From Thiomicrorhabdus sp. (lineage in GTDB: Bacteria; Pseudomonadota; Gammaproteobacteria; Thiomicrospirales; Thiomicrospiraceae): a stretch of 64,000 nt of DNA. The notes beneath the pieces were generated by a model. That model was not told the DNA's origin and searched no databases. It was given only the letters and a program-made list of their open reading frames with translations. The DNA is taken from positions 512,985-576,984 of the forward strand of contig NZ_OY759719.1 in the NCBI RefSeq assembly GCF_963662555.1, read 5' to 3'. Both the position numbers and the translations under genes were made by a program. The stretch's first letter is position 1; each line of letters opens with the position of its first letter. This document shows positions 11,206 through 62,318 of this stretch, in pieces.

Positions 11206-12732
11206 GTGAATAAGATGTTAAACGCAAAAACCCGTGAAAAATCATTGTTCTGGCGTACTTATCCACTGCCAGCAAATGTTGTGAAGAAGATCCAAGGAGA
11301 AGCTTCAGAAGGTTTGAATAAAGCATCTAATGATGGAAAACCAAGTGTTCACGCTTTGGTAAATACATCACAAAATGCCCAATTACGTGATTATGAAGTG
11401 CGTATTAAAGCTGGGTTTGATGAGATTAAATCGGTTGTACAACATTTAATTGTGCAGCAGAAACGTAACGATTTTGAGCAATGGGCTCAACAGACAATTA
11501 AACAAAAACTGGGTATTACCCTAAGCCAAAAACAAGTTGAAGAGAGTCTTAGCCAGAAGTTCGATAGCAATGTTTTATATGGCCAATGTGTTTTTAACCA
11601 GTTTATGTCGATGTCTAAGGAGTTTTTTGAACAAGATCCGTTACACGGTCAAAACAAACTACAGGCAGAGCGTCTTTTTAAAGATGCGGGTTTTCATGCC
11701 GTCGGTGTTGCACCATGTGCCGATGGGCGTTTAGCACACATTATTAGTTATGTATTACGGTTGCCTTATTCGGTAACCAGAAGAAAAGCGCATGCTGGAG
11801 CTCTGTTTGATGTGAGTGAAAGCGTACGTAACTGGGTCTTTATTGAACATAGCCGTTTTCGTGATGGCATACCTAATTCAAGTGAAGAGCCAACAAAATA
11901 TTTAAAAATTGCAGTGTATCACTACTCAAAATCAGATCCACACCACCAAGGTTGTGCGGCTCACGGTAGTGATGATGCCAAAGCGGCAGAGGCAGCTTTA
12001 ACGAAATTGAAAGATTTCCGCCAAGCAATCGAAAACCGATTTGGATGCGGGTCAACCGTACAAACACTGCTTATTGGAATGAATACTGACGACGATAGTC
12101 TGAAGATACACGTTCCAAACCAACAAGGAAAAGTGTGTTTAAAACGTTTTGTAGAAACGGATGCACTTTTCCAACAAACAACCAATATGAATTCTGAGCA
12201 AGCCAGAATCAAGATTGAACAAGCGGTAGAGCAATGTAACCCAGAGTTAGGCTCAACCGCACCAGTTGAATCAATGAATAAACTGATTGCTTGGTTCATT
12301 GAGAATAATTTTTCTCAGATTGCGTATGTTCAAGAGTATGAAAACGGATGTTATTCAGACATTGGACACGCAGAAAGATTTATAGGCATCGGTAACGGAT
12401 TTGAAGAAGTTCAACTTCGTAACCTAACTTACTACAGCTATTTGGATACGGTTGAGGAAGGGTTAAATGATGTCAATGTCGGGATTAAGATTTTTACTGG
12501 TCTTAATCTTAAAAATGGCTGGCCAATTCCAATCATTATCCGCTGTGATTATGACGGAAGAGTCCCAGGTTCTAAAGATAGAGCTGAAGAAAAAGCCAAA
12601 CGAATTGAACAAGCGTTACATGATCGTTATACCGAATTATCGGCAAGCGGTCAGCTACAGACCTTAAGTACTTTAAGGGATAACACTGGAAATCAACCGG
12701 CCGAAGAATTACCAGGCCTGGTTAATCTGTAA
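11206..12732 (+). CDS. csoSCA: Carboxysomal carbonic anhydrase CsoSCA
   Basis: 508 residues, the usual size for CsoSCA (CsoS3, epsilon class, a divergent beta-CA). The zinc-site segments are visible: VGVAPCADGRLAHI with the Cys and the Asp-Arg dyad, and HHQGCAAHGSDD with the His and second Cys. It dehydrates bicarbonate to CO2 inside the carboxysome. It starts 12 bp after csoS2. The last codons (ELPGLVNL-stop) contain one copy of the dispersed palindrome at 12711-12722. Confidence 0.95.
   Translation: MNKMLNAKTREKSLFWRTYPLPANVVKKIQGEASEGLNKASNDGKPSVHALVNTSQNAQLRDYEVRIKAGFDEIKSVVQHLIVQQKRNDFEQWAQQTIKQKLGITLSQKQVEESLSQKFDSNVLYGQCVFNQFMSMSKEFFEQDPLHGQNKLQAERLFKDAGFHAVGVAPCADGRLAHIISYVLRLPYSVTRRKAHAGALFDVSESVRNWVFIEHSRFRDGIPNSSEEPTKYLKIAVYHYSKSDPHHQGCAAHGSDDAKAAEAALTKLKDFRQAIENRFGCGSTVQTLLIGMNTDDDSLKIHVPNQQGKVCLKRFVETDALFQQTTNMNSEQARIKIEQAVEQCNPELGSTAPVESMNKLIAWFIENNFSQIAYVQEYENGCYSDIGHAERFIGIGNGFEEVQLRNLTYYSYLDTVEEGLNDVNVGIKIFTGLNLKNGWPIPIIIRCDYDGRVPGSKDRAEEKAKRIEQALHDRYTELSASGQLQTLSTLRDNTGNQPAEELPGLVNL
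12709..12725. repeat. Dispersed palindrome inside the csoSCA 3' end
   Basis: TTACCAGGCCTGGTTAA; core at 12711-12722. It encodes part of the final PGLVN of CsoSCA. Confidence 0.9.
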
Positions 12733-12748
12733 CTAAAAGGAGGATTGG

Positions 12749-13021
12749 ATGAAGATATTTCAAGTTGAAAAAACCCTGGTCTCCACCAACCGCATTGCCA
12801 CGATGGAACATAAACCATTATTAGTGGTTGCTGAAAAGGCAGGTGGAACTCCACAAGTTGCAGTCGATCCAGTTGGCTGCAAGCCAGGGGATTGGGTGTT
12901 ATGTGTAGGGAGTTCGGCGGCACGTGATGCCAGTGGGATTAAAGGATATCCAAGTGATTTAACTATAGTTGGAATCATTGACCGATGGGAGGTGAATACC
13001 GATGGAGATTCATCAAGTTAA
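12749..13021 (+). CDS. csoS4A: Carboxysome shell vertex pentamer CsoS4A
   Basis: 90 residues of the EutN/CcmL (BMV) fold: MKIFQVEKTLVSTNRI at the start, then DPVGCKPGDWVLCVGSSAAR and VGIIDRWEV. It caps the vertices of the icosahedral shell. An AAGGAGG Shine-Dalgarno lies immediately upstream, and its 3' end overlaps csoS4B by 20 bp, implying translational coupling. Confidence 0.95.
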   Translation: MKIFQVEKTLVSTNRIATMEHKPLLVVAEKAGGTPQVAVDPVGCKPGDWVLCVGSSAARDASGIKGYPSDLTIVGIIDRWEVNTDGDSSS

Positions 13022-13256
13022 ACAAAGATTAATTATGACCAGTCGACTTGATGGTTTAGGACACCTTCCTATAAAGGTTTTACAAAGTGTTTCTGGATCG
13101 ACTTTAGTCGCTTTAGATCCTATAGGTGTAAAAAATGGAGATTGGGTTTTTACCATTGCAAACTCTGCAGCCAGAACCGCCGCAGGCGACGATAAAATTT
13201 TAACCGACTTAACGGTAGCCGGCATTATTGATAATTGGCAACCGCAAACAAATTAG
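13002..13256 (+). CDS. csoS4B: Carboxysome shell vertex pentamer CsoS4B
   Basis: 84 residues, paralogous to CsoS4A (HQVKQRLIMTSRLDGLGH; DPIGVKNGDWVFTIANSAAR; VAGIIDNWQ). The start at 13002 lies inside csoS4A and is preceded by GGAGGTGA, which supports this start. Paired A and B vertex proteins are standard in alpha-carboxysome operons. Confidence 0.95.
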   Translation: MEIHQVKQRLIMTSRLDGLGHLPIKVLQSVSGSTLVALDPIGVKNGDWVFTIANSAARTAAGDDKILTDLTVAGIIDNWQPQTN

Positions 13257-13282
13257 TAAACGAAAGTAACAGGAGAAATATC

Positions 13283-13573
13283 ATGAGCGAATATGGAATT
13301 GCTTTAGGAATGATCGAAACACGTGGTTTAGTACCAGCGATTGAAGCGGCGGATGCTATGACCAAAGCGGCAGAAGTACGCTTAGTAAGTCGTGAATTTG
13401 TAGGCGGTGGTTACGTAACAGTAATGGTACGTGGTGAAACTGGAGCGGTAAACGCAGCAGTAAGAGCTGGAGCCGATGCTTGTGAACGAGTAGGTGACGG
13501 ACTAGTAGCTGCACACATCATTGCACGTCCACACAAAGAAGTGGAACCTGTATTAACCATTGAAAAAGCGTAA
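13283..13573 (+). CDS. csoS1: Carboxysome shell hexamer CsoS1, copy 1
   Basis: 96-residue single BMC-domain protein (starts MSEYGIALGMIETRGLVPAI). The ATG at 13283 is chosen because AGGAG lies at 13271-13275 and the protein then aligns with the other copies; an in-frame upstream ATG at 13235 would overlap csoS4B. The BMC core is identical in all four tandem copies. It forms hexameric shell facets with a small charged pore. Confidence 0.95.
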   Translation: MSEYGIALGMIETRGLVPAIEAADAMTKAAEVRLVSREFVGGGYVTVMVRGETGAVNAAVRAGADACERVGDGLVAAHIIARPHKEVEPVLTIEKA

Positions 13574-13616
13574 AAGATTTTAAATATAAATTAGTTAGAA
13601 CGTTAGGAGAACAGCC

Positions 13617-13910
13617 ATGAGTACAGAATATGGAATTGCTTTAGGAATGATTGAAACACGCGGTTTAGTACCAGCGATTGAAGCGGCGGATGCTATGACC
13701 AAAGCGGCAGAAGTACGCTTAGTAAGTCGTGAATTTGTAGGCGGTGGTTACGTAACAGTAATGGTACGTGGTGAAACTGGAGCGGTAAACGCAGCAGTAA
13801 GAGCTGGAGCCGATGCTTGTGAACGAGTAGGTGACGGACTAGTAGCTGCACACATCATTGCACGTCCACACAATGAAGTTGAATCAGTTGTTACAACTGA
13901 CAAAGCTTAA
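13617..13910 (+). CDS. csoS1: Carboxysome shell hexamer CsoS1, copy 2
   Basis: 97 residues with an N-terminal MSTEYG and the same BMC core as copy 1. It differs at the C-terminus (HNEVESVVTTDKA against HKEVEPVLTIEKA). The 43-bp spacer before it ends in TTAGGAGAACAGCC, which resembles the spacers before copies 3 and 4 and shows that the duplication unit included the ribosome-binding site. Confidence 0.95.
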   Translation: MSTEYGIALGMIETRGLVPAIEAADAMTKAAEVRLVSREFVGGGYVTVMVRGETGAVNAAVRAGADACERVGDGLVAAHIIARPHNEVESVVTTDKA

Positions 13911-13954
13911 GAAATTTTAAAAAACAAACAGTAAGAACGTTTAGGAGAAAAGCC

Positions 13955-14248
13955 ATGAGTACAGAATATGGAATTGCTTTAGGAATGATTGAAACACGCG
14001 GTTTAGTACCAGCGATTGAAGCGGCGGATGCTATGACTAAAGCGGCAGAAGTACGCTTAGTAAGTCGTGAATTTGTAGGCGGTGGTTACGTAACAGTAAT
14101 GGTACGTGGTGAAACTGGTGCAGTAAACGCAGCAGTAAGAGCAGGAGCCGATGCTTGTGAACGAGTAGGTGACGGACTAGTAGCTGCACACATCATTGCA
14201 CGTCCTCACAACGAAGTTGAATCAGTCGTTACGATTGAAAAGAAATAA
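13955..14248 (+). CDS. csoS1: Carboxysome shell hexamer CsoS1, copy 3
   Basis: 97 residues. Its tail HNEVESVVTIEKK is close to that of copy 2. Nucleotide identity with the neighbours is almost complete across the BMC core, with a handful of synonymous changes, suggesting recent duplication or ongoing gene conversion. The preceding spacer holds TTTAGGAGAAAAGCC. Confidence 0.95.
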   Translation: MSTEYGIALGMIETRGLVPAIEAADAMTKAAEVRLVSREFVGGGYVTVMVRGETGAVNAAVRAGADACERVGDGLVAAHIIARPHNEVESVVTIEKK

Positions 14249-14287
14249 TTAAGAAATTGATAATTAATTTAGCTTAGGAGAATAGCC

Positions 14288-14596
14288 ATGAGCACAGAAT
14301 ATGGAATTGCTTTAGGAATGATCGAAACACGTGGTTTAGTACCAGCGATTGAAGCGGCGGATGCTATGACCAAAGCGGCAGAAGTACGCTTAGTAAGTCG
14401 TGAATTTGTAGGCGGTGGTTACGTAACAGTAATGGTACGTGGTGAAACTGGTGCAGTAAATGCAGCAGTAAGAGCTGGAGCCGATGCTTGTGAACGAGTA
14501 GGTGACGGACTAGTAGCTGCACACATCATTGCACGTCCACACAAAGAAGTGGAACCTGTTCTAGACATGGCTAGCAACGGAGCAAGAATTGGTTAA
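14288..14596 (+). CDS. csoS1: Carboxysome shell hexamer CsoS1, copy 4 with extended tail
   Basis: 102 residues. The core is identical to the other copies. The tail first follows copy 1 (HKEVEPVL) and then continues as DMASNGARIG. This longer C-terminus resembles the CsoS1B-type tail extension that distinguishes one paralogue in other alpha-carboxysomes. The copy-1-like tail junction suggests mosaicism among the copies. Confidence 0.95.
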   Translation: MSTEYGIALGMIETRGLVPAIEAADAMTKAAEVRLVSREFVGGGYVTVMVRGETGAVNAAVRAGADACERVGDGLVAAHIIARPHKEVEPVLDMASNGARIG

Positions 14597-16116: not shown

Positions 16117-16731
16117 ATGAAAAAGATTGTGATAGCAACAGCCAATCCCAATAAAGTAAAGGAACTCAGTATTCCTTTGCAGTTAAATGGTTTTGATGTA
16201 AAGCTACAAACTGATTTTTTTTGCGATCAAGTGATTGAGGATGGTTTGAGCTTTGTTGAAAATGCACTGAAAAAAGCCAGATTTGCCAGTGCTAAAACCG
16301 GATTACCTGCAATCGCAGATGACTCAGGTTTACAAGTTGATTATTTAAATGGCAGGCCTGGTATCTATTCTGCAAGGTTTGCAGAAACACTTGGCTACCC
16401 TGAGAGCTCTGATTCTGAAAATATGCTACATCTAGTTGAATTGCTTAAGGGGCTGCCTCTTAAAGATCGTAAAGCAAACTATATTTGTTGCGTGGTATAT
16501 GTGGCACATGAAGATGATGAGACGCCTTTGATTGGAATGGGTACTTGGCATGGAGATATTCTGTCAGAACCTAGAACCCAATTTGGGATAGGTTATGATC
16601 CGATTGTATGGATTCCAAGCGAGCTTAAAGCCGCTTCTGAAATACCTCTTGAGAAAAAACTAAAAACTAGTCATCGTGCCCAAGCAATGCAATCGGTGAT
16701 TAATCAAATTAAACAGCGGGAGGCTAAATGA
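16117..16731 (+). CDS. rdgB: RdgB/HAM1 family non-canonical purine NTP pyrophosphatase
   Basis: 204 residues with all family landmarks: [12 protein letters not shown] at the start, [14 protein letters not shown], the [27 protein letters not shown] active-site block, FGIGYDPI, and the closing SHRAQAM. It hydrolyses dITP, XTP and ITP to monophosphates. It overlaps csoS1D by 4 bp (ATGA), so the two are translationally coupled. The segment coding GRPG contains a GCAGGCCTGG element at 16352-16361. Confidence 0.9.
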
Positions 16732-21041: not shown

Positions 21042-22262
21042 TTATTGAATATTTAGGGCCACTAAGTATTTTTGAAGGGTATTTTTTTGTTTTTGTAAGG
21101 CCTGGTAGGCATTTTCACCAAGTTTCTGTGCTTGTTCTGGATGTTCGAGCAGGGTAATAAGATCTTGCTGCAGTTGTGGGTAATTTTGGTTTTGAATAAT
21201 ACCGTTTTCTGCTTTTAGTAAAGTCATCTCATCTTCAAAATCTGAGCTATCTTGACCAGTAATAATCGCTTTCTTAAAGGCTGCAGGTTCTAAGATATTA
21301 TGCCCGCCTTTTGGCACATAGCTACCACCCATAATAACAATCTTTGCATGTGCGTATAAAGGCAATAGACGGCCAATTCGGTCATCTAAATAAACTTTTG
21401 TATCTTCTTGAATGGCTTCATTTTTGGTTGCAACTTTTAATTTTGAGCCTAAAAACTGCAGTTGTTTTTGAATTTTAATACTGCGTTTTGGGTGGCGAGG
21501 CACAATTACGAGTAGTTCTGATCGATTTAATTCCAGCCAAAGCTGGGTGATGTTTAATTCTTCATCATTATGTGTGGATGCGGCAAGAATAAACTCTCTC
21601 TCTATCGGTCTAGCTTGTTTTTGTATTTCGGGTTGAGCAGAATATTTTAGATTGCCTAAAACTTGAATTTTATTTGAATCGGCACCTAATTTGCCAAACA
21701 TTTCAGCATCGAGTTCAGAACGAGCTATGATTTTATCAACACGGCGTAAGCTATTGCGGTAAGCGGTTTGTAACCAGTTTGGAGACTGAAAAGTTTTTTG
21801 GGTTAAACGGCCATTTAAAATGCAGATTTCAATAGCGTTTTTATTCGCCACTCTAAACAGATTAGGCCATATTTCCGTTTCTACAATCCATAGACGATTC
21901 GGTTGATAAGCTTTTATAAAACGTCTCAAGGCAAATGGCCAATCAAATGGTAAATATCGATGAAATACCTGATCAGCGAATAGCTCATTAACTAATTGTT
22001 GGCTTGTTTTGGTGTTGGTGGTTAACAGAATCTTATGTTCAGACATTAAGTGTTTAATAAGTGGTTCTGCGGCTTTAACTTCGCCCACTGATGCACAATG
22101 AATCCAGATAGGATGGTGAAAATTTTGCAGAGGTTTACTATAGTGTAAACCCAGTTTTTGAGAGATAAATGCCCAACCAGCTTTATTTTTTAGGCCTTCA
22201 ATAATCACAATTAGCCAAATAAGCGGGCTAAGTAAGCGGATTAATATTTGATAAATAGGCAT
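21042..22262 (-). CDS. waaA: 3-deoxy-D-manno-octulosonic acid (Kdo) transferase
   Basis: 406 residues, GT30 family. An N-terminal membrane anchor (ILIRLLSPLIWLIVIIEGL) precedes the IWIHCASVGEVKAAEPL motif with the catalytic Glu region. TEIWPNLF and the C-terminal MGGSYVPKGGHNILEPAAF nucleotide-sugar site follow. It adds Kdo (here perhaps 8-amino-Kdo) to lipid A precursor. It lies 65 bp after kdsB on the same strand. Confidence 0.93.
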   Translation of the reverse strand: MPIYQILIRLLSPLIWLIVIIEGLKNKAGWAFISQKLGLHYSKPLQNFHHPIWIHCASVGEVKAAEPLIKHLMSEHKILLTTNTKTSQQLVNELFADQVFHRYLPFDWPFALRRFIKAYQPNRLWIVETEIWPNLFRVANKNAIEICILNGRLTQKTFQSPNWLQTAYRNSLRRVDKIIARSELDAEMFGKLGADSNKIQVLGNLKYSAQPEIQKQARPIEREFILAASTHNDEELNITQLWLELNRSELLVIVPRHPKRSIKIQKQLQFLGSKLKVATKNEAIQEDTKVYLDDRIGRLLPLYAHAKIVIMGGSYVPKGGHNILEPAAFKKAIITGQDSSDFEDEMTLLKAENGIIQNQNYPQLQQDLITLLEHPEQAQKLGENAYQALQKQKNTLQKYLVALNIQ

Positions 22263-22285: not shown

Positions 22286-22328
22286 CAATTTACCACACCC
22301 CGCAAGGGAGTATACAGGCCTGGTAAAT
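22286..22328 (-). repeat. Composite dispersed repeat, about 40 bp
   Basis: On the minus strand this reads TTTACCAGGCCTG, then a short spacer with CTCCCTTGCGGGG, then TGTGGTAAA. The outer ends TTTACCA/TGGTAAA are inverted repeats, as in the short palindrome, but the middle is longer. It lies between kdsB and waaA. A close copy is at 31110-31150 and a diverged one near 54089-54131. Confidence 0.75.
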
Positions 22329-23074
22329 TAATGACCCGCTTGAAGCAGTGCTTCCATAATCGCAATATCGCCCGGTAAATCGACTTCTGGTGAGTCGTAT
22401 TGGCTCTGCACAATTTTAATTTTATGACCGTATTCTAAAGCTCTTAACTGTTCAAGTTTTTCGATATCTTCAAGCTTGCCCATAGGTAATGCATTAAAGG
22501 TATCTACAAAGCGTTTGGTGTAAGCGTAAACCCCTAAATGTTTAAAGCTATCGTGATCCCAATAGTCACGACCATGTGGAATAGTGGCACGGGAGAAATA
22601 TAAGGCAAAGCCATTTACATCAGTAACCAACTTCACATCTTTAGGATTTGTAATTTCTGCTTCATTGACGATTTTGAAGGACAAAGTGCTCATTTCAAAG
22701 CTTTTATCGTAATCTTCAGCTAAGAATGGAGCAATGACATCTTCTATAGATTCATGATGAACAAGCGGTTGGTCGCCTTGTACATTGACAATTAAATCAT
22801 CATCTTTTAAACCAAGAGCATTAGCTGCCGCTGCAATACGGTCAGTACCAGAAGCGGCTTCAATAGGTGTCATTACCACCTTACCACCAAAGGCTTCTAC
22901 TACCTCTTTAATGCGGTCATCATCCGTAGCAATATAAACCCCAGCCAGCCCCTGAGCTTTAGAAATACGCTCATATACATGCTGAATCATCGGTTTACCA
23001 TCAATCAGCTTTAAAGGCTTACCAGGTAAACGAGAAGAACCGTATCGAGCAGGAATAAAAACATAAGTGTTCAT
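22328..23074 (-). CDS. kdsB: CMP-Kdo / CMP-8-amino-Kdo synthetase
   Basis: 248 residues. [16 protein letters not shown] is the nucleotide-binding loop, with VNVQGDQPL and RATIPHGRD completing the cytidylyltransferase pattern. Linked to kdnB and kdnA upstream, it probably activates 8-amino-3,8-dideoxy-manno-octulosonate, as the Shewanella homologue does, rather than Kdo only. Confidence 0.92.
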
Positions 23075-25634: not shown

Positions 25635-26348
<714 letters not shown>

Positions 26349-26504
26349 TTATGCCATTCCAAAAGCCCTCTAAAACATAAACTTCTTGCTTGGTCGGCTT
26401 CAGAAGCGGCAGTACAGGCCTGGAGAATTGAATAAATGTAATTTTTTATTCGATTAAGTCGTATAAGTCACGGCAAATTTTTAAAATCTATTTATAATGA
26501 TTGT

Positions 26505-27029
26505 ATGCATAAAGAAAGTATATTTTTAGTAGGTCCTATGGGGGCTGGAAAGTCCACAGTAGGTAAATTATTGGCCGAAAAGTTGCACTACCGTTTTGTG
26601 GACAGTGATCATGAGATTGAAGCCCGAACGGGTGCAACCATTCCGATGATTTTTGACATTGAAGGTGAGCTGGGCTTTAGAACCCGTGAAGCGGCCATGA
26701 TTGATGAATTGTCAGAACGTAATGAGGTTGTGTTGGCAACAGGTGGTGGTGTGGTCGAAACAGAAAGTAATCGACAGCATTTGCGATCTCGTGGTTTTGT
26801 TGTGTATTTAAAGTCTCCAGTAGAATCATTAATACAAAGAACCAAACACGACCGTAATCGTCCGTTATTACAAACTGATAATCCAGCACAAGTGTTGCGT
26901 GATTTAATGGAACGCCGTGAGCCGTGGTATTTAGAAATGGCCGATTTGGTGATTGAAACTCAGCAAGTACCGGTACACCGTGTGGTCAAACAAATTATTG
27001 ATTGTTTAGAGTCTGAACAGATTGTCTAG
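26505..27029 (+). CDS. aroK: Shikimate kinase
   Basis: 174 residues. Walker [13 protein letters not shown], the shikimate-binding [11 protein letters not shown] and GFRTREA, and the ATGGGVVE loop are present. It catalyses the fifth step of the shikimate pathway. It is followed 36 bp later by aroB, the standard aroKB order. Confidence 0.95.
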
Positions 27030-31109: not shown

Positions 31110-31150
31110 TTTACCAGGCCTGCCTTCCCTTCTTGCGGGGTGTGGTAAAG
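31110..31150 (+). repeat. Composite dispersed repeat, about 40 bp
   Basis: TTTACCAGGCCTG, then CCTTCCCTTCTTGCGGGG, then TGTGGTAAA. Same ends and same CCCTT...GCGGGG middle as the element at 22286-22328, which is on the opposite strand. It sits between tas and the tRNA-Arg gene. Confidence 0.75.
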
Positions 31151-35642: not shown

Positions 35643-35674
35643 GGATAATTAACCGCAATATGTATAAGGTTTAA

Positions 35675-41158: not shown

Positions 41159-41176
41159 TACCAGGCCTGGTAAAAT
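41159..41176. repeat. Dispersed palindrome copy upstream of the yjdF-like gene
   Basis: TACCAGGCCTGGTAAAAT; core ACCAGGCCTGGT at 41160-41171. Intergenic, about 75 bp upstream of the yjdF-like start codon. Confidence 0.9.
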
Positions 41177-43018: not shown

Positions 43019-43063
43019 AACTCTCATTTCTGTTGTTACCGCCCCAATTTTTAAGAGAATTTT

Positions 43064-48203: not shown

Positions 48204-49144
48204 TGGATTTGGGTTTTGTTATTGTTGCATTGGCGATTATTTTTCCTTTTTTATTGTTAAGTTTTACTTTTTTAGCTAAACAAAAACGCCAAAGGCAACA
48301 GCATTTAAAAGCACTAATGCTCCGAGTCGGACTACAGTCGGCAGAAACGAAAACTGTAACCAGTCAGCTTATGTTGCAAAGAGATAAAAACTGGTTTTTG
48401 TGGTTGATTGGTCTGTTTAAAAAAGCTGGGATATCCAATAAACGAGAAATTACCGTATTAATTATTATTCAGGCTTTTATGATATTTTTCAGTGTCTTTG
48501 TTTTATCAACTAAGTTTAATACCCTCACTGACAAACATATCATTTTAAGTGTGTTGTTACCGCTAATTCCTGCGGCCTATCTGTTTATTAAAATTCGTCA
48601 GCGACAGGCTGAACTCCGTAAACAATTTCCAGAAATGCTGGACTCTATTGTTCGCTCATTGCATTCAGGGTATGGAATCGACGGCGCAATTGCCGCTATT
48701 GGTGAAGATATGAATGGTGCTTTGGCCGAAGAGATGAAAGAGGTCAATAAACAGCTGGTGTTAGGTGTTAGTATGCGCGACATTTTAAGGGAGTTTCAAC
48801 GTAGAGTCGCACTGCCTGAAGCCCAGTATTTTGTCATTACTTTGATAATCCAGCGTGAGACAGGTGGGCAACTGGCCGCTATTCTGACCGAACTTTCTAA
48901 ATTAATGCGACGTCGAGATAATTTTCAAGCCAAGTTAAAAACCTTAACCGCAGAATCACGCTTTACTGCTTGGTTTATTGGCGGAGCACCGATTCTTTAT
49001 ATTGTGTATAAGTATTTCTTTGACAAAGAGTCTATGAATTTTTACTTGTATGATCCACTTGGTTTCAAGCTTTTTGTTTTTTCGTTGATCATGATAATCA
49101 CAGGAACTCTGATTCTGCGTTACATGCTAAAAATGAGATTTTAA
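48203..49144 (+). CDS. tadB: TadB inner-membrane platform protein
   Basis: 313 residues with membrane segments at both ends and a T2SSF domain (LRKQFPEMLDSIVRSLHSGYGIDGAIAAIGEDM; LPEAQYFVITLIIQRETGGQLAAILTELS). It forms the pilus assembly platform with TadC. Confidence 0.92.
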   Translation: MDLGFVIVALAIIFPFLLLSFTFLAKQKRQRQQHLKALMLRVGLQSAETKTVTSQLMLQRDKNWFLWLIGLFKKAGISNKREITVLIIIQAFMIFFSVFVLSTKFNTLTDKHIILSVLLPLIPAAYLFIKIRQRQAELRKQFPEMLDSIVRSLHSGYGIDGAIAAIGEDMNGALAEEMKEVNKQLVLGVSMRDILREFQRRVALPEAQYFVITLIIQRETGGQLAAILTELSKLMRRRDNFQAKLKTLTAESRFTAWFIGGAPILYIVYKYFFDKESMNFYLYDPLGFKLFVFSLIMIITGTLILRYMLKMRF

Positions 49145-49149
49145 TTAAG

Positions 49150-50046
49150 ATGAATATGGTAATACTGTTATTGATTGTAGGTCTTTTATCATTTTTTTCG
49201 GTTTGGTTATTAGTGAATCGAGTGATGAAGTTACAAGCAAAACAAATTGAAATTGAACACTTAAAATCTCGGGTAGGCTTGGCAAATAAATACACGGCAG
49301 AAAAACAAAGTTTTTCTAATTGTTGGTGGTGCTCTCTCGGTAAAGCTCTAGCTCCAAAGAGTAAAAAAGAGTTAGCTAAAACCCAACAACAATTATTTGG
49401 CGCTGGGTTTCGCAATGATAAAGATGTTGGCGGTTATTTTTTTATTAAATACAGCACCCTAATCATGACTATTTTAGGCATGTTGGCTTTATGGAGTTGG
49501 TATTCCGTAAGGTTGGAATGGGCAGTATTAGTGGTCATTATTATGATCTTATTGCCTGAAAGAATTCTAATTTTTTTAGGGCAGAAGCGCTTAGCTCAAG
49601 TCAGTACCGATCTACCTGATTTTTTGGATATGTGTAATGTCTGTATGAATGCAGGGTTAAGTTATTTAGTTGCCATTAAACGAGTTTCACATGAGCTTAA
49701 AGAGGTTCACCCTGAAATCTGCTATGAGTTTGAATATGTATTAGATCAAATTCAAATAGGCGTTGCTCGTACCGATGCTTTACGTCAATTTGCACAGAGA
49801 AATCCTACCAAAGATATTCAGAATTTAGTACAGGTATTAATTCAAAACGAAAAGCTAGGTAGTTCTATTAGTGCGGCTCTTAACAGCTTTTCTCGCCGCA
49901 TGTATCAAGAAAGAGAGCAGTTTTTAGAAGAGAAGGCAGCCAAAACTTCCGCTAAGATGGCGGTGGTGATTATGCCTTTTTTAATGATGCCATATTTGGT
50001 TTTACTGGTTGGCGAACGCATGGTTATGCTTGCTAGAGGATTTTAA
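49150..50046 (+). CDS. tadC: TadC inner-membrane platform protein
   Basis: 298 residues, T2SSF domain (LPDFLDMCNVCMNAGLSYLVAIKRVSHEL; DIQNLVQVLIQNEKLGSSISAALNSFSRRMYQEREQ) flanked by membrane helices. Paralogue and partner of TadB, which ends 5 bp upstream. Confidence 0.92.
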   Translation: MNMVILLLIVGLLSFFSVWLLVNRVMKLQAKQIEIEHLKSRVGLANKYTAEKQSFSNCWWCSLGKALAPKSKKELAKTQQQLFGAGFRNDKDVGGYFFIKYSTLIMTILGMLALWSWYSVRLEWAVLVVIIMILLPERILIFLGQKRLAQVSTDLPDFLDMCNVCMNAGLSYLVAIKRVSHELKEVHPEICYEFEYVLDQIQIGVARTDALRQFAQRNPTKDIQNLVQVLIQNEKLGSSISAALNSFSRRMYQEREQFLEEKAAKTSAKMAVVIMPFLMMPYLVLLVGERMVMLARGF

Positions 50047-50047
50047 A

Positions 50048-50677
50048 ATGAGTGTAAAAAATAAACTGATAATTGTACTGAATGTTTTGGCAATTACCTT
50101 ATTAGGCGGATGTTCACAAACGCCAACCAAGCTTGCTGATCTACAAAAACAAGCTTATCAACAACCTAAAACAGAACCTTTGGCCACCAATTTAAATGAT
50201 AAAGATGAATATGAATTTGCTTTGGATTTAGTTGGTTTAGAAATTAAGCGTCAGCATTATTCACGTGCTGAAGTGTTATTACAAAAACTGAGAAAAATTG
50301 ACCGTACTGATGTGCGCATTTATCGTTTATTGGGACAAGTTTATGAAGCTCAAAATAAACTAGATTTGGCTTTAATTGCTTGGAAAGAAGTCAATAAATC
50401 AAACGATAAAACCACTAAAGATGAAGCTCAATTAGGACGTTTAGCCTTAATGGAAAATCAATTTAAACTCGCTGAATCAATTTACCAGGCCTGGTTAAAT
50501 TCAGATAAAGAAGTGGTACAAGTCAGTGGATTAAATAATTTAGGGTTTTCAGCGATGTTACAAAAGAAGAATGCAAGAGCTAAGACGTATTTTCTACAGG
50601 CTTTACAAAAAGACCCTCTCAATAGCAAAGCGATGAATAACTTAAAATTGCTTGATACTTTGGTAGGACGACTATGA
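50048..50677 (+). CDS. tadD: TadD lipoprotein with TPR repeats
   Basis: 209 residues from ATG 50048, chosen so that the signal ends in a lipobox (ITLLGGC|SQ); a longer frame beginning at 50009 would bury it. TPR-like helices follow (VLLQKLRKIDRTDVRIYRLLGQVYEAQNKLDLAL...). Needed for pilus secretion in Tad systems. A palindrome copy (50484-50495) lies in frame in the codons for YQAW. The stop overlaps the next gene by 4 bp. Confidence 0.85.
   Translation: MSVKNKLIIVLNVLAITLLGGCSQTPTKLADLQKQAYQQPKTEPLATNLNDKDEYEFALDLVGLEIKRQHYSRAEVLLQKLRKIDRTDVRIYRLLGQVYEAQNKLDLALIAWKEVNKSNDKTTKDEAQLGRLALMENQFKLAESIYQAWLNSDKEVVQVSGLNNLGFSAMLQKKNARAKTYFLQALQKDPLNSKAMNNLKLLDTLVGRL
50481..50500. repeat. Dispersed palindrome inside tadD
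   Basis: TTTACCAGGCCTGGTTAAAT; core at 50484-50495, encoding YQAWLN. Confidence 0.9.
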
Positions 50678-52035
50678 GAGTAGTAAAACATTTATACAAA
50701 CAAAGAGGTGCTGTGAGCATTTTGGGTGCCGCAGCGATTGCTTTAGGATTATTTGGATTTGATCAAGTTTTACAATATGGTAATGCCAAAATATTAGACC
50801 GAGAGTTAGACAACTATGCTCGCACGGTTGCAAATGTCGCTTTACGTTCTGAATTAGCCATTACTAAGGCTGGAATTGATGCTGGCACCATGAGTGCCGA
50901 CCAAACCAGTATTGTAGTTGATGATCTGCTCAATCAAGTCAATATGTATGCTACTGCTACAGATAGTAAAGCTGCCAATTTATATAAAGAGATTACCTTT
51001 GGTAACCTCGACGAAAATGGAAAATTTGTTGCTTTATCGAGCGATGCCAATAATCCAAAAGCAGCTCAAACGCCTCCATACTTCAGTGCGGTTGCTGTTC
51101 AGCTATGGAGTACCGAAAGTTTTTATACATTTACCCCGCAAGGCAAAGCGATATACGGTTTATCATCTTCGGATCAAAATGCAGACTCTAGTTGTTATTG
51201 TAAAAATCGTTATACCGCTTGTTTGGATATGGATTTAACGTCGGCTGATTTAGCTCCTATTCCTGCCGCTGATGCCGCTCTTATTGCAGTTAAAGGTTCT
51301 GACGAACGTAAAAATTATTGCAACTATGGTTATACTCCTTCTCAAGCCAGTAATTTAAATAAAACCAAATACCCTTGGGCTCAATTTGATGATGGTTGGA
51401 TAGGTCGTGAACCAGATACGGTGAATTTCTTTATGTTTTACTCTAAAGGCTATAGTGATGCCGCTTTTTCAAAGATTTTAGAGCATAAACCGTTAGCAAT
51501 TAATGATGGTGAAGATCCTTTATATAAAACGGGTGGTATGTTTTCTGCGATGCTAAGCATGATGTCTTTATTTATGCCTGGGAGTTCTTTGGACGAAAAA
51601 TTGGCCTATGAACAAGATCAGTCTAAGCTTAAAAAGAGCGACATATCCTCTTCCCCTGATTTTGATAATTATCGCTGCTCAAACTCGTGGTCTGTAAAGT
51701 CTTGTAGCTCGTTTTCTTCTTGGTCTAATCCAGAAGTTGTCTTAGATGACAGTTTCTATATTGGTTACAAAGGAACTTGTGTTCCAAGTACAAATAAAGC
51801 TAATTCTGATATGTCACGTTGTCTTTCCTATAATGATAGTGGTACTGAGCGTTATGAAAGCTGTTTAGATATTTCACGAAGAAGTAGTATGCATATGAAT
51901 TTCTTTCAGCGAATGATGTCTTTTTTCTTTGGCCCAATTTTAGACTGGGAACGTTCTTATGAAGGTCTAGATTGCGAAATGAAAAAAATGAAGTACGTAG
52001 GTTGGATGTTCTGGGGTGGTTGGAAAGACGTTTAA
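50674..52035 (+). CDS. tadG: TadG-like pilus-associated protein
   Basis: 453 residues. One N-terminal membrane segment within RGAVSILGAAAIALGLFGF is typical of TadG/TadE-type Tad domains. A long periplasmic part has many cysteines (for example SSCYCKNRYTACLDMD and SRCLSYND). It is the last gene of the operon. The stop codon TAA lies inside a dispersed palindrome at 52031-52050. Confidence 0.7.
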   Translation: MRVVKHLYKQRGAVSILGAAAIALGLFGFDQVLQYGNAKILDRELDNYARTVANVALRSELAITKAGIDAGTMSADQTSIVVDDLLNQVNMYATATDSKAANLYKEITFGNLDENGKFVALSSDANNPKAAQTPPYFSAVAVQLWSTESFYTFTPQGKAIYGLSSSDQNADSSCYCKNRYTACLDMDLTSADLAPIPAADAALIAVKGSDERKNYCNYGYTPSQASNLNKTKYPWAQFDDGWIGREPDTVNFFMFYSKGYSDAAFSKILEHKPLAINDGEDPLYKTGGMFSAMLSMMSLFMPGSSLDEKLAYEQDQSKLKKSDISSSPDFDNYRCSNSWSVKSCSSFSSWSNPEVVLDDSFYIGYKGTCVPSTNKANSDMSRCLSYNDSGTERYESCLDISRRSSMHMNFFQRMMSFFFGPILDWERSYEGLDCEMKKMKYVGWMFWGGWKDV

Positions 52036-52050
52036 CCAGGCCTGGTAAAA
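52031..52050. repeat. Dispersed palindrome overlapping the tadG stop codon
   Basis: TTTAACCAGGCCTGGTAAAA; core ACCAGGCCTGGT at 52035-52046. The tadG TAA is at 52033-52035, so the element forms the junction between coding sequence and trailer. Confidence 0.9.
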
Positions 52051-52716
52051 TTAAAAAACCTAGGTTTTATAATGAAGACTAAAACCTAGGAAAGAGAGGG
52101 TATTGGAATAATACCCCGGAGGAAAAACGCTTATAGAATTTGATATTTATAAGGGTTTTCCCTTAAGCAAATATACTAGCATCGAACAATAATGACTGTT
52201 TGAGTTTAATTTTGGTAACGAATAGATTTAATTAATAGATATTCTTGGACAGTAAAGTCGTTTTTGCTACAGACAATGCCACAGAAATTAGCAGGTTTTA
52301 AATTATTGGATAAGTATGTTTGTGGATTTGATGAAACCTTTAGCAGTGATGATATTGTTTGATTTAACGTTTTATCACGCCACTCCTAGCAAAGAGAAGC
52401 ATAAAGGTTTAATAAATTGGATCTTTATTAAAAATTAAGTTATTACCCACTCTGTATAGCCTGTTGTAGAGTCCGACGAATATTCATTTCTCTTACATGA
52501 AAAACGCCTGTTAGTTGTTCTTCTCTTAAAGAGCACTAAAGTTTCAATCAATATATCTTTAATCTTATAGAGCAAATGGTTAGACCGTCTATTCTAAGGA
52601 ATAATGGATAAACCCTTGAAGAGGCTTTATCAGACTATTTTAATGCGTAATTTTACCCTAATATGTGCTTGGGCATTAGTTTTATTTATAGGCATATAAT
52701 TAAAAGGGTTATTATT
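52036..52716. other. Long non-coding region with hairpins
   Basis: 681 bp without a supported gene. Structures seen: CCTAGGTTTTA/TAAAACCTAGG (52059-52090, 11-bp stem, likely the tad operon trailer), GGGTATT-ggaat-AATACCC (52098-52116), and AAGGG-tttt-CCCTT near 52152. The rest is AT-rich with stop codons in all frames. No known riboswitch was recognised. Confidence 0.5.
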
Positions 52717-53955
52717 ATGAATCAATTATTTTTACAAAAATGGCATCCACGTCATTGGTTATTGCCTCTAGGCATAATGGGTACCAGCATAATGCTGGTT
52801 TTTATCCTCAATATTTTTGTCCCGCATAAAGGGTATTTTTTACCCTCTATTACTCAAGTTGATAGTTTTATTGAACAATCGAACTTTTTTGCTGCTTTGG
52901 CAATCAATCTTACTTGGTGGTTGTTTTGGGCACTACTGGCTATCGCCACAATACTTATTCCTTATTTTCTTTATAAATCTATCCAGTTTTTAAAATCTGG
53001 AGCTCATCAAATTTCAGATAAAAATGCCATGGAAACAGCAGGATGGTTTGGTGTGTCATTAACTTTGGCGATGTTTGGTAATGTCACCAGTTTTGCTACC
53101 GTTATGTTTTTTGAACTAAATGCGAAAGCGGATGACTTTATCTGGCCGTTTTGGTTAGCCTATAACACCGCCATTGCTCTTATGGCTCTGTTTCAATATA
53201 TTTGGTATCGTCAGGCAAAACAACAGGCTGATCAGCCAGAGCAATCCTCCATGGTTGTGCCTTTTGCTTTAGGTTTTATGGGGCTTAATTTAGCCGGTCC
53301 AGGAGCAATGGGAAGTCATGATGTTGTTGTAAGCATATCCATCTTTTTATCTATTGGGTTTATGTTGCTTTCAATGTATGCATGGTTAACAAAATTGGCT
53401 ACTTTTAAGAAAGATTCTAAAGCTCTGTTTGCTTATAAAAATGACAATACTGATGCCACTAAAACAAAAAACTGGTCACAGTTAATGAATTTTGGAACGG
53501 CAGTAACAACCTTTAATGTTTGGCTTATTACCAGTGTGCGAAACTACCTAAATTACGGGCATCATTTTTCTGAATTTGAATTAGCCACCAAAAATATGAT
53601 TACTTGGGGGGCGGCTATTACAGTGCCTATCGCGTTATTAGTTTTATTTTTATTGTGGAAGCGTGGATTTTTTGCACATCTATTTAAAGCTCAACAGCCA
53701 TTAGTCTTTTCTTTAGGCTTAATCTGTATGTTGGTTTCAAGTTATGTGATTACCGCTTTATATACCATGACAGCATTAAAACTTGGGCTAATAGCAAAAG
53801 GAAGTGGCATCATTTATCTGTTAATTGGCGTAGAAACCATACTTCTTTCGGTGACGGTTTTTAGTGTTATCGCACTCATTTATCGAATGATTATTAAACA
53901 AAATGTTCAGTGTTGGAAAAATGAAGAAGTGCAACAACATTTGACTAGAAGTTAA
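52717..53955 (+). CDS. Multi-pass membrane protein of unknown function
   Basis: 412 residues from ATG 52717; a start 54 bases upstream is in frame, but the shorter form begins cleanly before the first membrane helix. About ten hydrophobic segments. Notable conserved-looking stretches are ETAGWFGVSLTLAMFGNVTSFATVMFFE and GLNLAGPGAMGSHDVVVSISIF. It vaguely recalls transporter-type proteins, but I cannot name a family with confidence. It stands alone and is followed by an intrinsic terminator. Confidence 0.6.
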   Translation: MNQLFLQKWHPRHWLLPLGIMGTSIMLVFILNIFVPHKGYFLPSITQVDSFIEQSNFFAALAINLTWWLFWALLAIATILIPYFLYKSIQFLKSGAHQISDKNAMETAGWFGVSLTLAMFGNVTSFATVMFFELNAKADDFIWPFWLAYNTAIALMALFQYIWYRQAKQQADQPEQSSMVVPFALGFMGLNLAGPGAMGSHDVVVSISIFLSIGFMLLSMYAWLTKLATFKKDSKALFAYKNDNTDATKTKNWSQLMNFGTAVTTFNVWLITSVRNYLNYGHHFSEFELATKNMITWGAAITVPIALLVLFLLWKRGFFAHLFKAQQPLVFSLGLICMLVSSYVITALYTMTALKLGLIAKGSGIIYLLIGVETILLSVTVFSVIALIYRMIIKQNVQCWKNEEVQQHLTRS

Positions 53956-54131: not shown

Positions 54132-54164
54132 TTATCGATTAAAAGAACGAATAAAGTTTTCAAT

Positions 54165-54205
54165 AAAAACGCCCGCAATTTTTATTAAATTGGCGGGCGT
54201 TTTTT
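54165..54205 (+). terminator. Intrinsic terminator after the membrane-protein gene
   Basis: AAAAACGCCCGC...GCGGGCGTTTTT with T-run. It is nearly the same as the terminator at 62333-62373 and is followed by the same TTATTGGAGGCAGGATT context, so it belongs to a duplicated segment. Confidence 0.9.
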
Positions 54206-54226
54206 ATTGGAGGCAGGATTGGATTA

Positions 54227-54325
54227 AATACGGTTCAACATGCCTAATCTAACTAAAACCGAGTCTGTAAGGGCCTGTTCTAGGTATTGTTCAAAAGTCT
54301 AAGTGTTTCCTTCACTGTCTGATTG
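54227..54325 (-). pseudogene. Remnant of the mtnN 3' end
   Basis: On the minus strand this region translates to EQYLEQALTDSVLVRLGMLNRI-stop, matching the end of the intact mtnN product (EQYLEQAATHSAKVILGMLERI). The match continues upstream with an in-frame TAG replacing a Lys codon (N-T-stop-T-F-E-Q-Y against N-A-K-T-F-E-Q-Y), then fades after a small deletion. It is followed by the same terminator as real mtnN. It is a decayed duplicate of the last 30 or so codons, not an expressed gene. Confidence 0.8.
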
Positions 54326-54638
54326 ATTGTTATCTCTACGGCTCAAATTTTTCTACTAATTCTTCCGCTATTTATGCAATGGGTTTTATGAAAATGATTT
54401 TACCAGGCCTGGTGAATTTAATGGCTATCTATGTTGTGTATACATAAGATAAAACAAAAATAGGATATGCTAATCAACTAGTTAACGAGAAATAACCCTT
54501 ATAAAACCTACCTCTTAGTTTTAACTGATTTTATACATTCGGTTAGTGCTTTTATCTCTATATCTTTATGTCTGTATTCTAAAGGCGTTATGGATACCCT
54601 CTAGTAAATTGCTCTAAAGTTCAAGTAAACCCACTTTT
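54326..54638. other. Non-coding region between the mtnN remnant and the Fur boxes
   Basis: No gene. It contains a palindrome copy at 54398-54417 (core 54402-54413); the rest is AT-rich without recognised features. Confidence 0.5.
54398..54417. repeat. Dispersed palindrome copy
   Basis: TTTTACCAGGCCTGGTGAAT-type element with perfect core ACCAGGCCTGGT at 54402-54413 and one imperfect flank. Intergenic, 320 bp before exbB. Confidence 0.85.
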
Positions 54639-54739: not shown

Positions 54740-55402
54740 ATGATTCAGGATTTATTCGCATTTTTAAACTTTGGTGGGCCAGTCGTTCTTATTCTTATTG
54801 GCTTTTCAGTGGTGGCGACAACGTTGGCATTATTAAAGCTGTGGCAGTTTTTTCGTATGCGAAAAGTTAATGGTGCTGAACCCAGTTTGCTGATTAGTCT
54901 GGTTGAAAAATCAGAAACCAATCAGGTCAAACTCATGAGTAAAGGGCAGGCAAATCCACGTGCAAAGCTGATTTCTCAAGCGGTTGATTTATTTGAAAAG
55001 CAAACCATGTCAATTGCTGATATTAAACAAGAACTGGCACGCAATGCACGTCAGAGCATTTCTAAACTGGATGAATACCTAAGACCTTTAGAAGTGATTG
55101 CCACCATTGCGCCGTTACTTGGATTGTTTGGTACGGTTTTGGGCATGATCGAAGCCTTTCAGGCTATGGAAGCGGCAGGTAAAAATGTCAATCCAGCTAT
55201 TTTATCTGGTGGTATTTGGCAAGCCTTGTTAACTACTGCGGTTGGTCTTGCTGTCGCCATTCCAGTGTCTATGGTTCATAGCTATTTTGAACGTAAAGTT
55301 GAGCGTGAAGCCTTAGCAATTCAAGATGATTTAGCCCGTATATCAACACATTTTGCCAGCAAGCTAGAGCATAAAAAATCAGTAGGCATGGAAAACGTCT
55401 AA
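54740..55402 (+). CDS. exbB: ExbB proton-channel subunit
   Basis: 220 residues, MotA/TolQ/ExbB family. An N-terminal membrane helix (LFAFLNFGGPVVLILIGFSVVATTLALLKLW) and the conserved IATIAPLLGLFGTVLGMIEAF and LLTTAVGLAVAIPVSM segments are present. With ExbD it transduces the proton gradient to TonB. It heads the Fur-boxed operon and shares one base with the exbD start. Confidence 0.93.
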   Translation: MIQDLFAFLNFGGPVVLILIGFSVVATTLALLKLWQFFRMRKVNGAEPSLLISLVEKSETNQVKLMSKGQANPRAKLISQAVDLFEKQTMSIADIKQELARNARQSISKLDEYLRPLEVIATIAPLLGLFGTVLGMIEAFQAMEAAGKNVNPAILSGGIWQALLTTAVGLAVAIPVSMVHSYFERKVEREALAIQDDLARISTHFASKLEHKKSVGMENV

Positions 55403-60667: not shown

Positions 60668-60737
60668 GAGTTGTGTGGAAGACAAGTAAATTTGCTTTTA
60701 CGGACTGCAAAACAAATGCTAAAAATAAGGAAAAAAG

Positions 60738-61424: not shown

Positions 61425-61438
61425 AGGAGTTATTTACT

Positions 61439-61726
61439 ATGATTAAAAATGTAATTTTTACAATGATTATTGCAAGTTTTTCAGGTTCGGCTATTGCCGG
61501 CGCAAAATGCCCAAAACAGCCAAAAGAAAAATGGATGCATGTATTAGATATGCAAAAGAAAATCGTAAATGAATATGGTTTTGCTATTAAAAAGTTTCAA
61601 ACCGATGGTCAATGTTATGAAATTTATGGCTGGGGTTTAAATGATGCAAAAGATAAATTTGTTAAGATTGAGGTATATTTCAATCCCGTAACAGGTGCGA
61701 TTGTTAAAAAAGAGATTGATGATTAA
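61439..61726 (+). CDS. Small exported PepSY-like protein
   Basis: 95 residues. Signal peptide (MIKNVIFTMIIASFSGSAIAG) and a single PepSY-like domain (VNEYGFAIKKFQTDGQCYEIYGW...KIEVYFNPVTGAIVKKEI). Periplasmic; PepSY proteins often accompany iron uptake and cytochrome b-type membrane proteins, as here with the b561 gene 5 bp downstream. Confidence 0.75.
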   Translation: MIKNVIFTMIIASFSGSAIAGAKCPKQPKEKWMHVLDMQKKIVNEYGFAIKKFQTDGQCYEIYGWGLNDAKDKFVKIEVYFNPVTGAIVKKEIDD

Positions 61727-61731
61727 CAGAT

Positions 61732-62265
61732 ATGCCAAACGAAAATAGTTTTGTCATTTGGGATAAATTCATACGAATTTTTCATTGGTCAGTCGCCACA
61801 CTATTTTTATTAGATTATTGGGTAGTTGAGGGCGGCGAAGATCTACATGATTGGATTGGTTATGCCATCGCCTTGCTTGTTGTATTGCGAGTAATATGGG
61901 GGTTTATTGGATCAACAAATGCTCGCTTTAACAGTTTTTGGCCATCAGTCTTCAATATAAAACAATATGTTCAGCGGTTTCCAAATAAAACGTCATACAC
62001 AAGTGGGCATAATCCGCTTGGTGGCATGATGATTTTATTTTTACTGTTTATGTTATTTTTAACGGCATTAAGCGGTTGGATGCGTGGTTTAGATATGTTT
62101 TGGGGCGAAGATTGGGTTCAATGGCTTCATGAATATTCGGCCGATGTTTTAATGGCGAGTGTTTTGATACATGTAATGGCTGTTGTGATAACGCAGACAT
62201 TAACCCGTGTTCCTTTAATTATTCCCATGATTACTGGTAAAAGAAAAAAACCACCGTCAAATTGA
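61732..62265 (+). CDS. Cytochrome b561 family membrane protein
   Basis: 177 residues with four membrane helices. Heme-ligand histidines are visible in FIRIFHWSVATLFLLDYW, DLHDWIGYAIALLVVLRVIWG, WLHEYSADVLMASVLIHVMAV. It moves electrons across the inner membrane. As the last gene of the Fur-boxed operon, it may reduce imported ferric iron or act with the PepSY protein; this is inferred. Confidence 0.85.
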   Translation: MPNENSFVIWDKFIRIFHWSVATLFLLDYWVVEGGEDLHDWIGYAIALLVVLRVIWGFIGSTNARFNSFWPSVFNIKQYVQRFPNKTSYTSGHNPLGGMMILFLLFMLFLTALSGWMRGLDMFWGEDWVQWLHEYSADVLMASVLIHVMAVVITQTLTRVPLIIPMITGKRKKPPSN

Positions 62266-62296
62266 TGGTTTATTGATTTGTTTGGGTTATTTTTTG

Positions 62297-62318
62297 ATTT
62301 TACCAGGCCTGGTAAAAT
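62297..62318. repeat. Dispersed palindrome, longest perfect copy (22 bp)
   Basis: Core ACCAGGCCTGGT at 62302-62313, flanked on both sides by ATTTT/AAAAT so that all 22 bases are palindromic. It lies between the b561 gene and the shared terminator. Confidence 0.95.

Follow-up and report, generated by a model that had tools for sequence, protein, structure and literature searches.

A highly iterated palindrome in Thiomicrorhabdus and its relatives, and its possible role as a DNA self-recognition sequence

What is a perfect 12-bp palindrome doing in copy after copy along a stretch of bacterial chromosome, within genes as well as between them? The question is raised by a window of 64,000 nt (the whole stretch of DNA analysed; positions 512,985-576,984 of contig NZ_OY759719.1, assembly GCF_963662555.1) from the sulphur-oxidising bacterium Thiomicrorhabdus sp., in which a first-pass annotation had pointed to nine exact copies of the 12-mer ACCAGGCCTGGT and about eighteen of its central octamer CAGGCCTG. 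All nine 12-mers were located, each containing the two CCWGG sites (CCAGG and CCTGG) and the StuI site (AGGCCT) that had been described. The named octamers are likewise all present, but the true count is 19, the copy at 1288-1295, outside the listed ORFs, having been overlooked. In one hundred dinucleotide-shuffled versions the octamer appeared 0.67 times on average and never more than 4 times.

The 12-mer at 12711-12722 occupies the last codons of a carboxysome carbonic anhydrase gene (ORF 11206-12732). Those at 32196-32207, 33894-33905 and 50484-50495 fall within an aminotransferase ORF (31332-32612, minus strand), ovoA (32623-34761, minus strand) and a TPR ORF of the Tad locus (50009-50677), respectively, while that at 52035-52046 starts on the final base of ORF 50674-52035. 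The copy at 41160-41171 lies between ORFs 39410-40951 and 41248-41862, and that at 54402-54413 between ORFs 52663-53955 and 54740-55402. The longer flanked forms reported earlier are also as described: the 20-bp perfect palindrome TTTTACCAGGCCTGGTAAAA at 37820-37839 (12-mer at 37824-37835), outside ORFs of at least 150 aa, and the 22-bp perfect palindrome ATTTTACCAGGCCTGGTAAAAT at 62297-62318 (12-mer at 62302-62313), between the convergent ORFs 61732-62265 (plus) and 62392-63084 (minus). Octamers without the full 12-mer are found within ORF 4074-5258 (4744-4751), a Ham1-family gene (16353-16360 in 16117-16731), aroB (27598-27605, at a Ser-Ala-Gly-Leu-Ala-Glu stretch), a DUF2238 gene (41629-41636 in 41248-41862) and a phosphorylase-superfamily gene (62740-62747 in 62392-63084, minus strand). 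Others lie between ORFs 21042-22262 and 22328-23074 (22315-22322), 25635-26339 and 26505-27029 (26415-26422), and 34886-35590 and 35675-36568 (35636-35643), and one is close to a tRNA-Arg gene, outside the listed ORFs (31115-31122).

The first-pass annotation had named two findings that would refute it, a motif confined to this window or a near-Markov count. Neither is the case. The source genome (G000; a single contig of 2.70 Mb) carries 488 exact copies of the 12-mer and 904 of the octamer, compared with a single copy of the reversed octamer, and the motif is also found in relatives. In a 464 kb sample a second-order Markov model predicts 0.04 12-mers and 4.5 octamers, against 95 and 166 observed; CAGGCCTG is the most over-represented 8-mer of this sample and its commonest palindromic 8-mer, the property by which highly iterated palindromes (HIPs) are recognised. 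Over 20 stretches of 20 kb the copy number behaves much as in a Poisson distribution (mean 7.35, variance 7.19), so the copies are neither clustered nor evenly spaced. AGGCCT, GGCC and CCWGG show no enrichment outside the long motif. It is as a long motif that the palindrome is so heavily over-represented, both within genes and between them. No description of it was among the papers listed by our literature searches. Chi and KOPS, which are non-palindromic, strand-biased octamers, were considered and rejected, the word being its own reverse complement.

The core of the motif can be written C-M-GGCC-K-G, with lineage-specific flanking letters and, in most groups, AT-rich tracts lying roughly one helical turn away. 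Information in the flanks is graded to about 12 bp on each side and nothing is shared beyond about 17 bp from the centre: the copies have only the motif in common. A search for a one-sided AT tract beside palindromic copies found none. With genes called by a simple codon-usage ORF picker rather than from annotation, 101 of the 166 sampled octamers lie within predicted genes, where they are read in three frames (QAW, PGLV and TRPG). The 12-mer nevertheless favours intergenic DNA in the source genome (52 of 95 copies, though such DNA makes up 12% of the sample), and is densest where genes converge (14 in 7.3 kb) and sparsest where they diverge (5 in 10.4 kb). Three sampled genomes of group g5 have a mostly genic distribution (85 copies against 6). 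A second hairpin-like sequence adjoins two of the sites; in the 464 kb sample it amounts to no more than two copies, both intergenic.

Intergenic enrichment and an ability to form hairpins in some copies are features shared with REP/BIME elements, and a dispersed family of REP- or MITE-like repeats, or of intrinsic terminators with a common stem, is one way to account for the motif. In its favour, two intergenic copies in Hydrogenovibrio form hairpins made up of an A-tract, a stem and a T-tract (-13 and -12.3 kcal/mol), and intergenic copies preserve arm pairing at varying positions in both Hydrogenovibrio (z 5.8) and B-type Thiomicrorhabdus (z 4.2). Genic copies in these same groups, however, show no such compensatory pairing (z 0.0 and 0.1), and the stems in the Thiomicrorhabdus sp. 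window are AT-rich with no U run directly following. Moreover, unlike REP/BIME elements, the copies are mostly genic, have no longer repeat unit and hold conserved positions between species. We therefore regard a repeat or terminator family as most improbable, and the REP-like role suggested by the first-pass annotation fails on the genic majority and on the end of flank similarity at about 17 bp. Raised pairing was also seen in genic copies of a pooled set of eight A-type Thiomicrorhabdus species with differing flanks (z 3.9) and, at positions 10-13, of the source genome (z 2.7), and pairing in intergenic copies of the source genome is not significant (z 1.1). These values run counter to a neat division between genic and intergenic copies, but we do not rely on them given the mixed species set and the simple gene calls. 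What the pairing data do suggest is that intergenic copies in some species have become terminator-like hairpins, much as uptake sequences double as terminators in Neisseria and the Pasteurellaceae (PMC1852404).

Further clues come from the distribution of the motif. Across 62 genomes of the family, octamer counts are bimodal, with 236-1173 copies in 32 genomes and 0-74 in the other 30, near-complete genomes among the latter; 21 genomes from other families of the class have 0-1 copies of the 12-mer each. Where motif-rich genomes are aligned to one another, CAGGCCTG is intact in 170 of 293 comparisons, whereas the figure for other 8-mers having six G/C is 7%; none of 141 comparisons of motif-rich with motif-poor genomes has it intact. 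These comparisons are ordered pairs and not independent. Individual sites in the window follow the same pattern. The aroB copy is retained in 7 of 11 motif-rich relatives and none of nine motif-poor ones, which encode the same residues mostly through other codons. The core at 32196 is retained in four of six aligned motif-rich relatives (not in G010 or G005) and none of five motif-poor, and that at 33894 in three of six (G030, G009 and G015) and none of six. Some lineages keep the motif in place from genome to genome; in others it has decayed to background.

The motif-rich genomes use at least four dialects, of which A, B and C are two-fold symmetric palindromes and D is asymmetric. Dialect C, ACCGGCCGGT, resembles A with one base removed from each half. 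Dialect D is one-directional: ACAGGCCGGG occurs 13 times in 58.8 kb in unrelated contexts (the listing has 14 rows, one being a variant), and in 7 of the 13 it is directly preceded by AAACTCA, the run of A being longer in most of these. Placed on a SpoT+AroB tree of 21 genomes, the dialects need 5 changes for 5 states, whereas shuffled states need 10.2 on average and were never as low in 200 trials. The dialects of related lineages therefore largely follow the tree, the exceptions being a loss of the motif (G003) within the A group and the position of dialect D within the B clade.

The symmetry of dialects A, B and C, the graded flanks and the intergenic enrichment, stronger between convergent than divergent genes, are what would be expected were the palindrome bound by an abundant dimeric protein, either one with a chromosome-organising role or one with effects at hundreds of loci. 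The half-sites TTTACCAGG would touch its two subunits, the AT tracts would lengthen the contact and occupancy would be under selection. Sites of the Noc/KorB/ParB type also have AT-rich arms around a GC-rich centre, as here. Known examples of such chromosome-organising proteins, however, have tens rather than hundreds of sites, far fewer than the copies seen here, and no second ParB paralogue tracks the motif: the source genome has one ParB_N match, and extra copies elsewhere among the 62 genomes are unlinked to it. Nor does a dimeric reader sit easily with the absence of the motif from about half the family, its loss inside a motif-rich group, the asymmetry of dialect D or the genic bias of the g5 genomes. 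We consider such a protein, one of the roles first proposed, the main rival explanation but an unlikely one; a Noc/KorB-like second ParB, the single version examined, is not supported.

Palindromic form, high copy number, a GC-rich centre, patchy distribution and replacement by other palindromes in some lineages all recall HIP1 and the alternate HIPs of cyanobacteria (PMC4390886). By analogy, an orphan methyltransferase acting inside the palindrome, coupled to methylation-directed mismatch repair, might ratchet nearby sequences into the palindromic form. Three methyltransferase families (PF00145, PF01555 and PF02086) are nonetheless all unmatched in the source genome, which disfavours such an origin. 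Nine further motif-rich genomes, eight with a completeness of 99% or more, likewise have no match to them. In the genomes that do carry such genes, their presence is unrelated to that of the motif: counting weak matches, PF00145 is found in 9 of 30 motif-rich genomes (58 of the 62 genomes were searched for it), PF01555 in 13 of 32 and PF02086 in 7 of 32. The motif is also longer than HIP1 and has flanks, and a typical methyltransferase footprint falls short of the roughly 12 bp from the centre to which flank information extends. Its density, about 335 octamers per Mb, compares with a published range for HIPs of 500-2500 per Mb (PMC4390886). The lack of enrichment of GGCC, AGGCCT and CCWGG outside the palindrome points the same way but does not by itself exclude a HIP1-like origin, since CGATCG is likewise unenriched outside HIP1 (Elhai, PMC4390886); some HIP1-rich genomes are also described there as lacking a CGATCG enzyme. 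On balance, a methylation by-product is very unlikely, and the methylation-linked mark among the roles first proposed is disfavoured by the unmatched families and unenriched sub-sites.

Among the four roles put forward in the first-pass annotation, a DNA-uptake or recognition sequence fits best, without being proven. We suggest, at a little short of an even chance, that the palindrome serves throughout the genome for self-recognition, in the manner of DNA uptake sequences (DUS/USS), a reading based on its density, its positional maintenance, dialects that track the tree, the asymmetric dialect D, the intergenic hairpins, the presence of ComEC and the scarcity of viral copies (the 16-mer TTACCAGGCCTGGTAA occurs in only four stretches of a viral collection, one site in each). 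A putative sequence-specific reader, most likely the receptor for DNA in a ComEC-dependent pathway of uptake, would favour motif-bearing DNA; copies born by mutation would spread by recombination, and some of those between genes may have been co-opted as terminator hairpins. Against this, uptake sequences are not known to be palindromes in their own right.

Known systems offer parallels. The DUS of the Neisseriaceae, for which the minor pilin ComP acts as receptor, is also a word of 10-12 bp present in many copies, and its species-specific dialects share a common core and follow phylogeny (PMC3630211), as the lineage dialects here largely do. Copies of the DUS are used in terminators (PMC1852404), a role that intergenic hairpins may also have here. 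The present motif differs in that dialects A, B and C are palindromic in themselves and a canonical PilQ/PilP pilus was not found. The Pasteurellaceae USS combines a core with AT tracts in a one-directional form, and dialect D takes this form rather than that of a symmetric dimer site. The relation of dialect C to A is paralleled by that of the H. ducreyi motif, which lacks a GT dinucleotide, to the usual USS (PMC1852404), although the word is unrelated to the USS and palindromic in most of the motif-rich species sampled.

The candidate machinery gives less guidance, as none of the pilus and competence markers tested over the 62 genomes tracks the motif. ComEC is found in 56 of them, in 31 of 32 motif-rich but also 25 of 30 motif-poor genomes, and thus does not discriminate. 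PilQ is above cut-off in none of the 62 and PilP in one. The PilP model is blank in every one of the 14 control genomes as well, and a divergent PilP would thus escape it. A sub-cut-off PilQ match in the source genome, a secretin of about 700 aa, lies in a row of genes sized like a type II secretion operon, to which we infer from gene order and size that it belongs. The Tad pilus, whose locus lies in the window, was rejected as the uptake machine: RcpC is present in 16 of 32 motif-rich and 11 of 30 motif-poor genomes, without association, and is missing from the near-complete motif-rich genomes G016, G063, G064 and G075. MSHA-like loci occur in the source genome, with two MshL-like secretins (592 aa, over cut-off, and 578 aa, just under), and in G063, with one of 505 aa below cut-off; conjecturally, these could serve for uptake. 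Literature searches on competence in the family, in part unspecific, had no paper on the subject among the matches listed.

Words repeated so often in a genome are uncommon, and whether they arise and are kept by selection, drive or repair bias is an old question; the function of HIP1 is described as debated still (PMC4390886). The present family offers a natural experiment, in which related species have about 1000 copies, an altered word or background counts, and some lack the methyltransferase families invoked for HIP1. A bolder proposal, and a rather doubtful one, is that Thiomicrorhabdus, Hydrogenovibrio and Thiomicrospira share a third, independently evolved bacterial DNA self-recognition system besides those of the Neisseriaceae and Pasteurellaceae. 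Its uptake sequences would be mostly palindromes in four or more dialects, read by a putative receptor, the system operating without a canonical PilQ-type pilus and lost more than once. If the motif is an uptake tag, self-selective DNA uptake would extend to environmental chemoautotrophs, and a single motif occurring in both palindromic and asymmetric form would allow receptors to be compared. The motif might also be of use in transferring genes into bacteria that have carboxysomes.

All nine positions in the window at which the first-pass annotation had placed a perfect 12-mer palindrome centred on AGGCCT hold that word exactly, and the estimate of about eighteen copies of its central 8-mer, CAGGCCTG, agrees well with the 19 that we counted. 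The window spans 512,985-576,984 of the source genome (G000), a single contig of 2,696,250 bp that contains 488 copies of the 12-mer and 904 of CAGGCCTG. In a G000 sample of 21 stretches (464 kb with a GC content of ~38%, the window among them), 95 12-mers were observed against 0.04 expected, and CAGGCCTG stands at the top of the list of over-represented 8-mers. Counts of CAGGCCTG per 20 kb, in 20 stretches of G000, are Poisson-like. One stretch, L003 (G000:C1:270001-290000), has a GC content of 44% and just 3 copies per 20 kb, and is possibly foreign or repetitive DNA.

The G000 copies give the consensus AAATTTACC-AGGCCT-GGTAAATTT, with weak outer letters and information that falls close to background once the distance to the centre exceeds ~17 bp. 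The 464-kb sample holds few 12-mers with a single mismatch, 29 in total as against 95 exact ones. With the palindromes masked, no enrichment was seen in the sample for GGCC (742 observed, 1055 expected), AGGCCT (64 and 71) or CCAGG (241 and 264), indicating that the long word is the unit, and not a short core for restriction or methylation. At window positions 22290-22322 and 31113-31148, another hairpin-like sequence (ACCACACCCCGCAAG...) adjoins the palindrome, and a similar one partly replaces the palindrome at two aligned sites in the relative G016.

Although ~88% of the sample is coding, 52 of the 95 12-mers lie between genes, their density being highest between convergent genes. CAGGCCTG falls within predicted genes in 101 of 166 cases, most commonly translated as Pro-Gly-Leu-Val (22), Gln-Ala-Trp (20) or Thr-Arg-Pro-Gly (9); this mostly genic location and the recurrent peptide readings imply that the motif shapes protein sequence too. 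Three sampled genomes of genus g5 have 85 genic and 6 intergenic copies.

Across the 62 Thiomicrospiraceae genomes that the collection gave, 32 are rich in CAGGCCTG (236-1173 copies) and 30 are poor (0-74), with the reversed control word found 0-36 times per genome. Rich genomes make up 15/32 of genus g1, 7/11 of g6, 9/9 of g5 and 1/1 of g3, and none of g2 (0/4), g4 (0/1) or g28 (0/4). In 21 genomes beyond the family, the 12-mer is found 0-1 times per genome, and four stretches of viral contigs carry TTACCAGGCCTGGTAA, one copy apiece.

Sampled stretches of the relatives reveal four lineage dialects of the motif: A, ACCAGGCCTGGT; B, GRACAGGCCTGTYC, whose outer letters are loose (G005, G018, G025); C, ACCGGCCGGT (G023, with 29 copies of the core in 52.7 kb); and D, ACAGGCCGGGT, mostly preceded by an A run with CTCA (G021, in which 58.8 kb hold the 10-mer 13 times). 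C-M-GGCC-K-G is common to all four in unchanged register. The asymmetric ACAGGCCGGGT copies are dispersed in G021 loci L036 and L170, with none in a third sampled stretch, L056. No strongly enriched GGCC-centred word was apparent in 20-55 kb from each of ten relatives (G003, G011, G013, G014, G017, G020, G024, G026, G029 and G031), a survey that subtler or other words might escape. A SpoT+AroB tree, which covers 21 genomes of genus g1, puts the dialect A genomes in one group with G003 inside it as an exception (supports 86/90 and 85/86), and nests dialect D in the B clade (100/100).

We compared syntenic 11-21 kb stretches from 21 genomes in ordered pairs, which are not independent. Between rich genomes, aligned CAGGCCTG was intact in 170 of 293 comparisons; the figure for other 8-mers that have six G/C was 7%, and among those containing GGCC it was 13%. 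Copies from rich genomes were intact in 0/141 comparisons with the nine remaining genomes, which include G021 and G023, carriers of other dialects. The aroB copy at window position 27598 is a case in point, with CAGGCCTG kept in 7/11 rich and 0/9 poor relatives.

In intergenic copies from Hydrogenovibrio, arm positions 6-9 vary with pairing kept (66/92 against 39.6 when shuffled, z 5.8), as they do in B-type Thiomicrorhabdus (87/148 against 62.8, z 4.2); genic copies in these two sets show no excess pairing (z 0.0 and 0.1). Pairing in other A-type Thiomicrorhabdus is raised in both classes (z 4.8 intergenic, 3.9 genic), which we attribute to the mixing of species; the intergenic copies of G000 give a z of 1.1. 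Predicted folding energies are -13 and -12.3 kcal/mol for two Hydrogenovibrio copies and -5 to -10.9 kcal/mol for four window copies, one of which is modelled without a central hairpin. We read the hairpin copies as having been co-opted as putative terminators in some species, a use secondary to the motif itself.

The window also includes the alpha-carboxysome genes CsoS2 and CsoSCA. Directly after the carboxysome carbonic anhydrase gene, where one would presumably expect genes for the carboxysome shell, a 300-nt unit occurs four times in tandem (13289-14596; copies 89-94% alike). Two directly repeated 153-nt copies (76% alike) lie 8.2 kb apart, at 54163-54315 and 62331-62483, the latter extending into the 3' end of a phosphorylase-superfamily gene. 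A Tad/Flp pilus locus (42509-50677) encodes TadE-like, RcpC/CpaB, secretin and CpaE/MinD-like proteins, an ATPase, two T2SSF proteins and a TPR protein; it holds a palindrome at 50484, and another lies a little past its end, at 52035.

Which mechanism might lie behind the motif? As to methylation, the three methyltransferase families searched (PF00145, PF01555 and PF02086) have no match in G000, nor in nine more rich genomes (G010, G015, G018, G025, G027, G033, G060, G064 and G075). No chromosome-partition (ParB) paralogue that tracks the motif was found. The main rival to the reading that we prefer would make the motif the site of a dimeric chromosome-organising protein. As to uptake, ComEC is present in 31/32 rich and 25/30 poor genomes; among the 62 genomes, PilQ was above cut-off in none and PilP was found in one; Tad (16/32 rich, 11/30 poor) shows no association with the motif; and MSHA-like loci occur in G000 and G063. 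Thus no machinery test splits rich from poor genomes. Among the papers listed in our searches, largely from freely accessible journals and judged by their titles and the openings of their abstracts, none gives an account of the motif in this family or of the 12-mer. Dialects, maintenance, loss, an asymmetric form (dialect D) and putative terminator use are the same pattern as that of the DNA uptake sequences of Neisseriaceae (DUS) and Pasteurellaceae (USS). Because of this analogy, we prefer to see the motif as an uptake-type sequence by which these bacteria would recognise their own DNA, read by a putative receptor.
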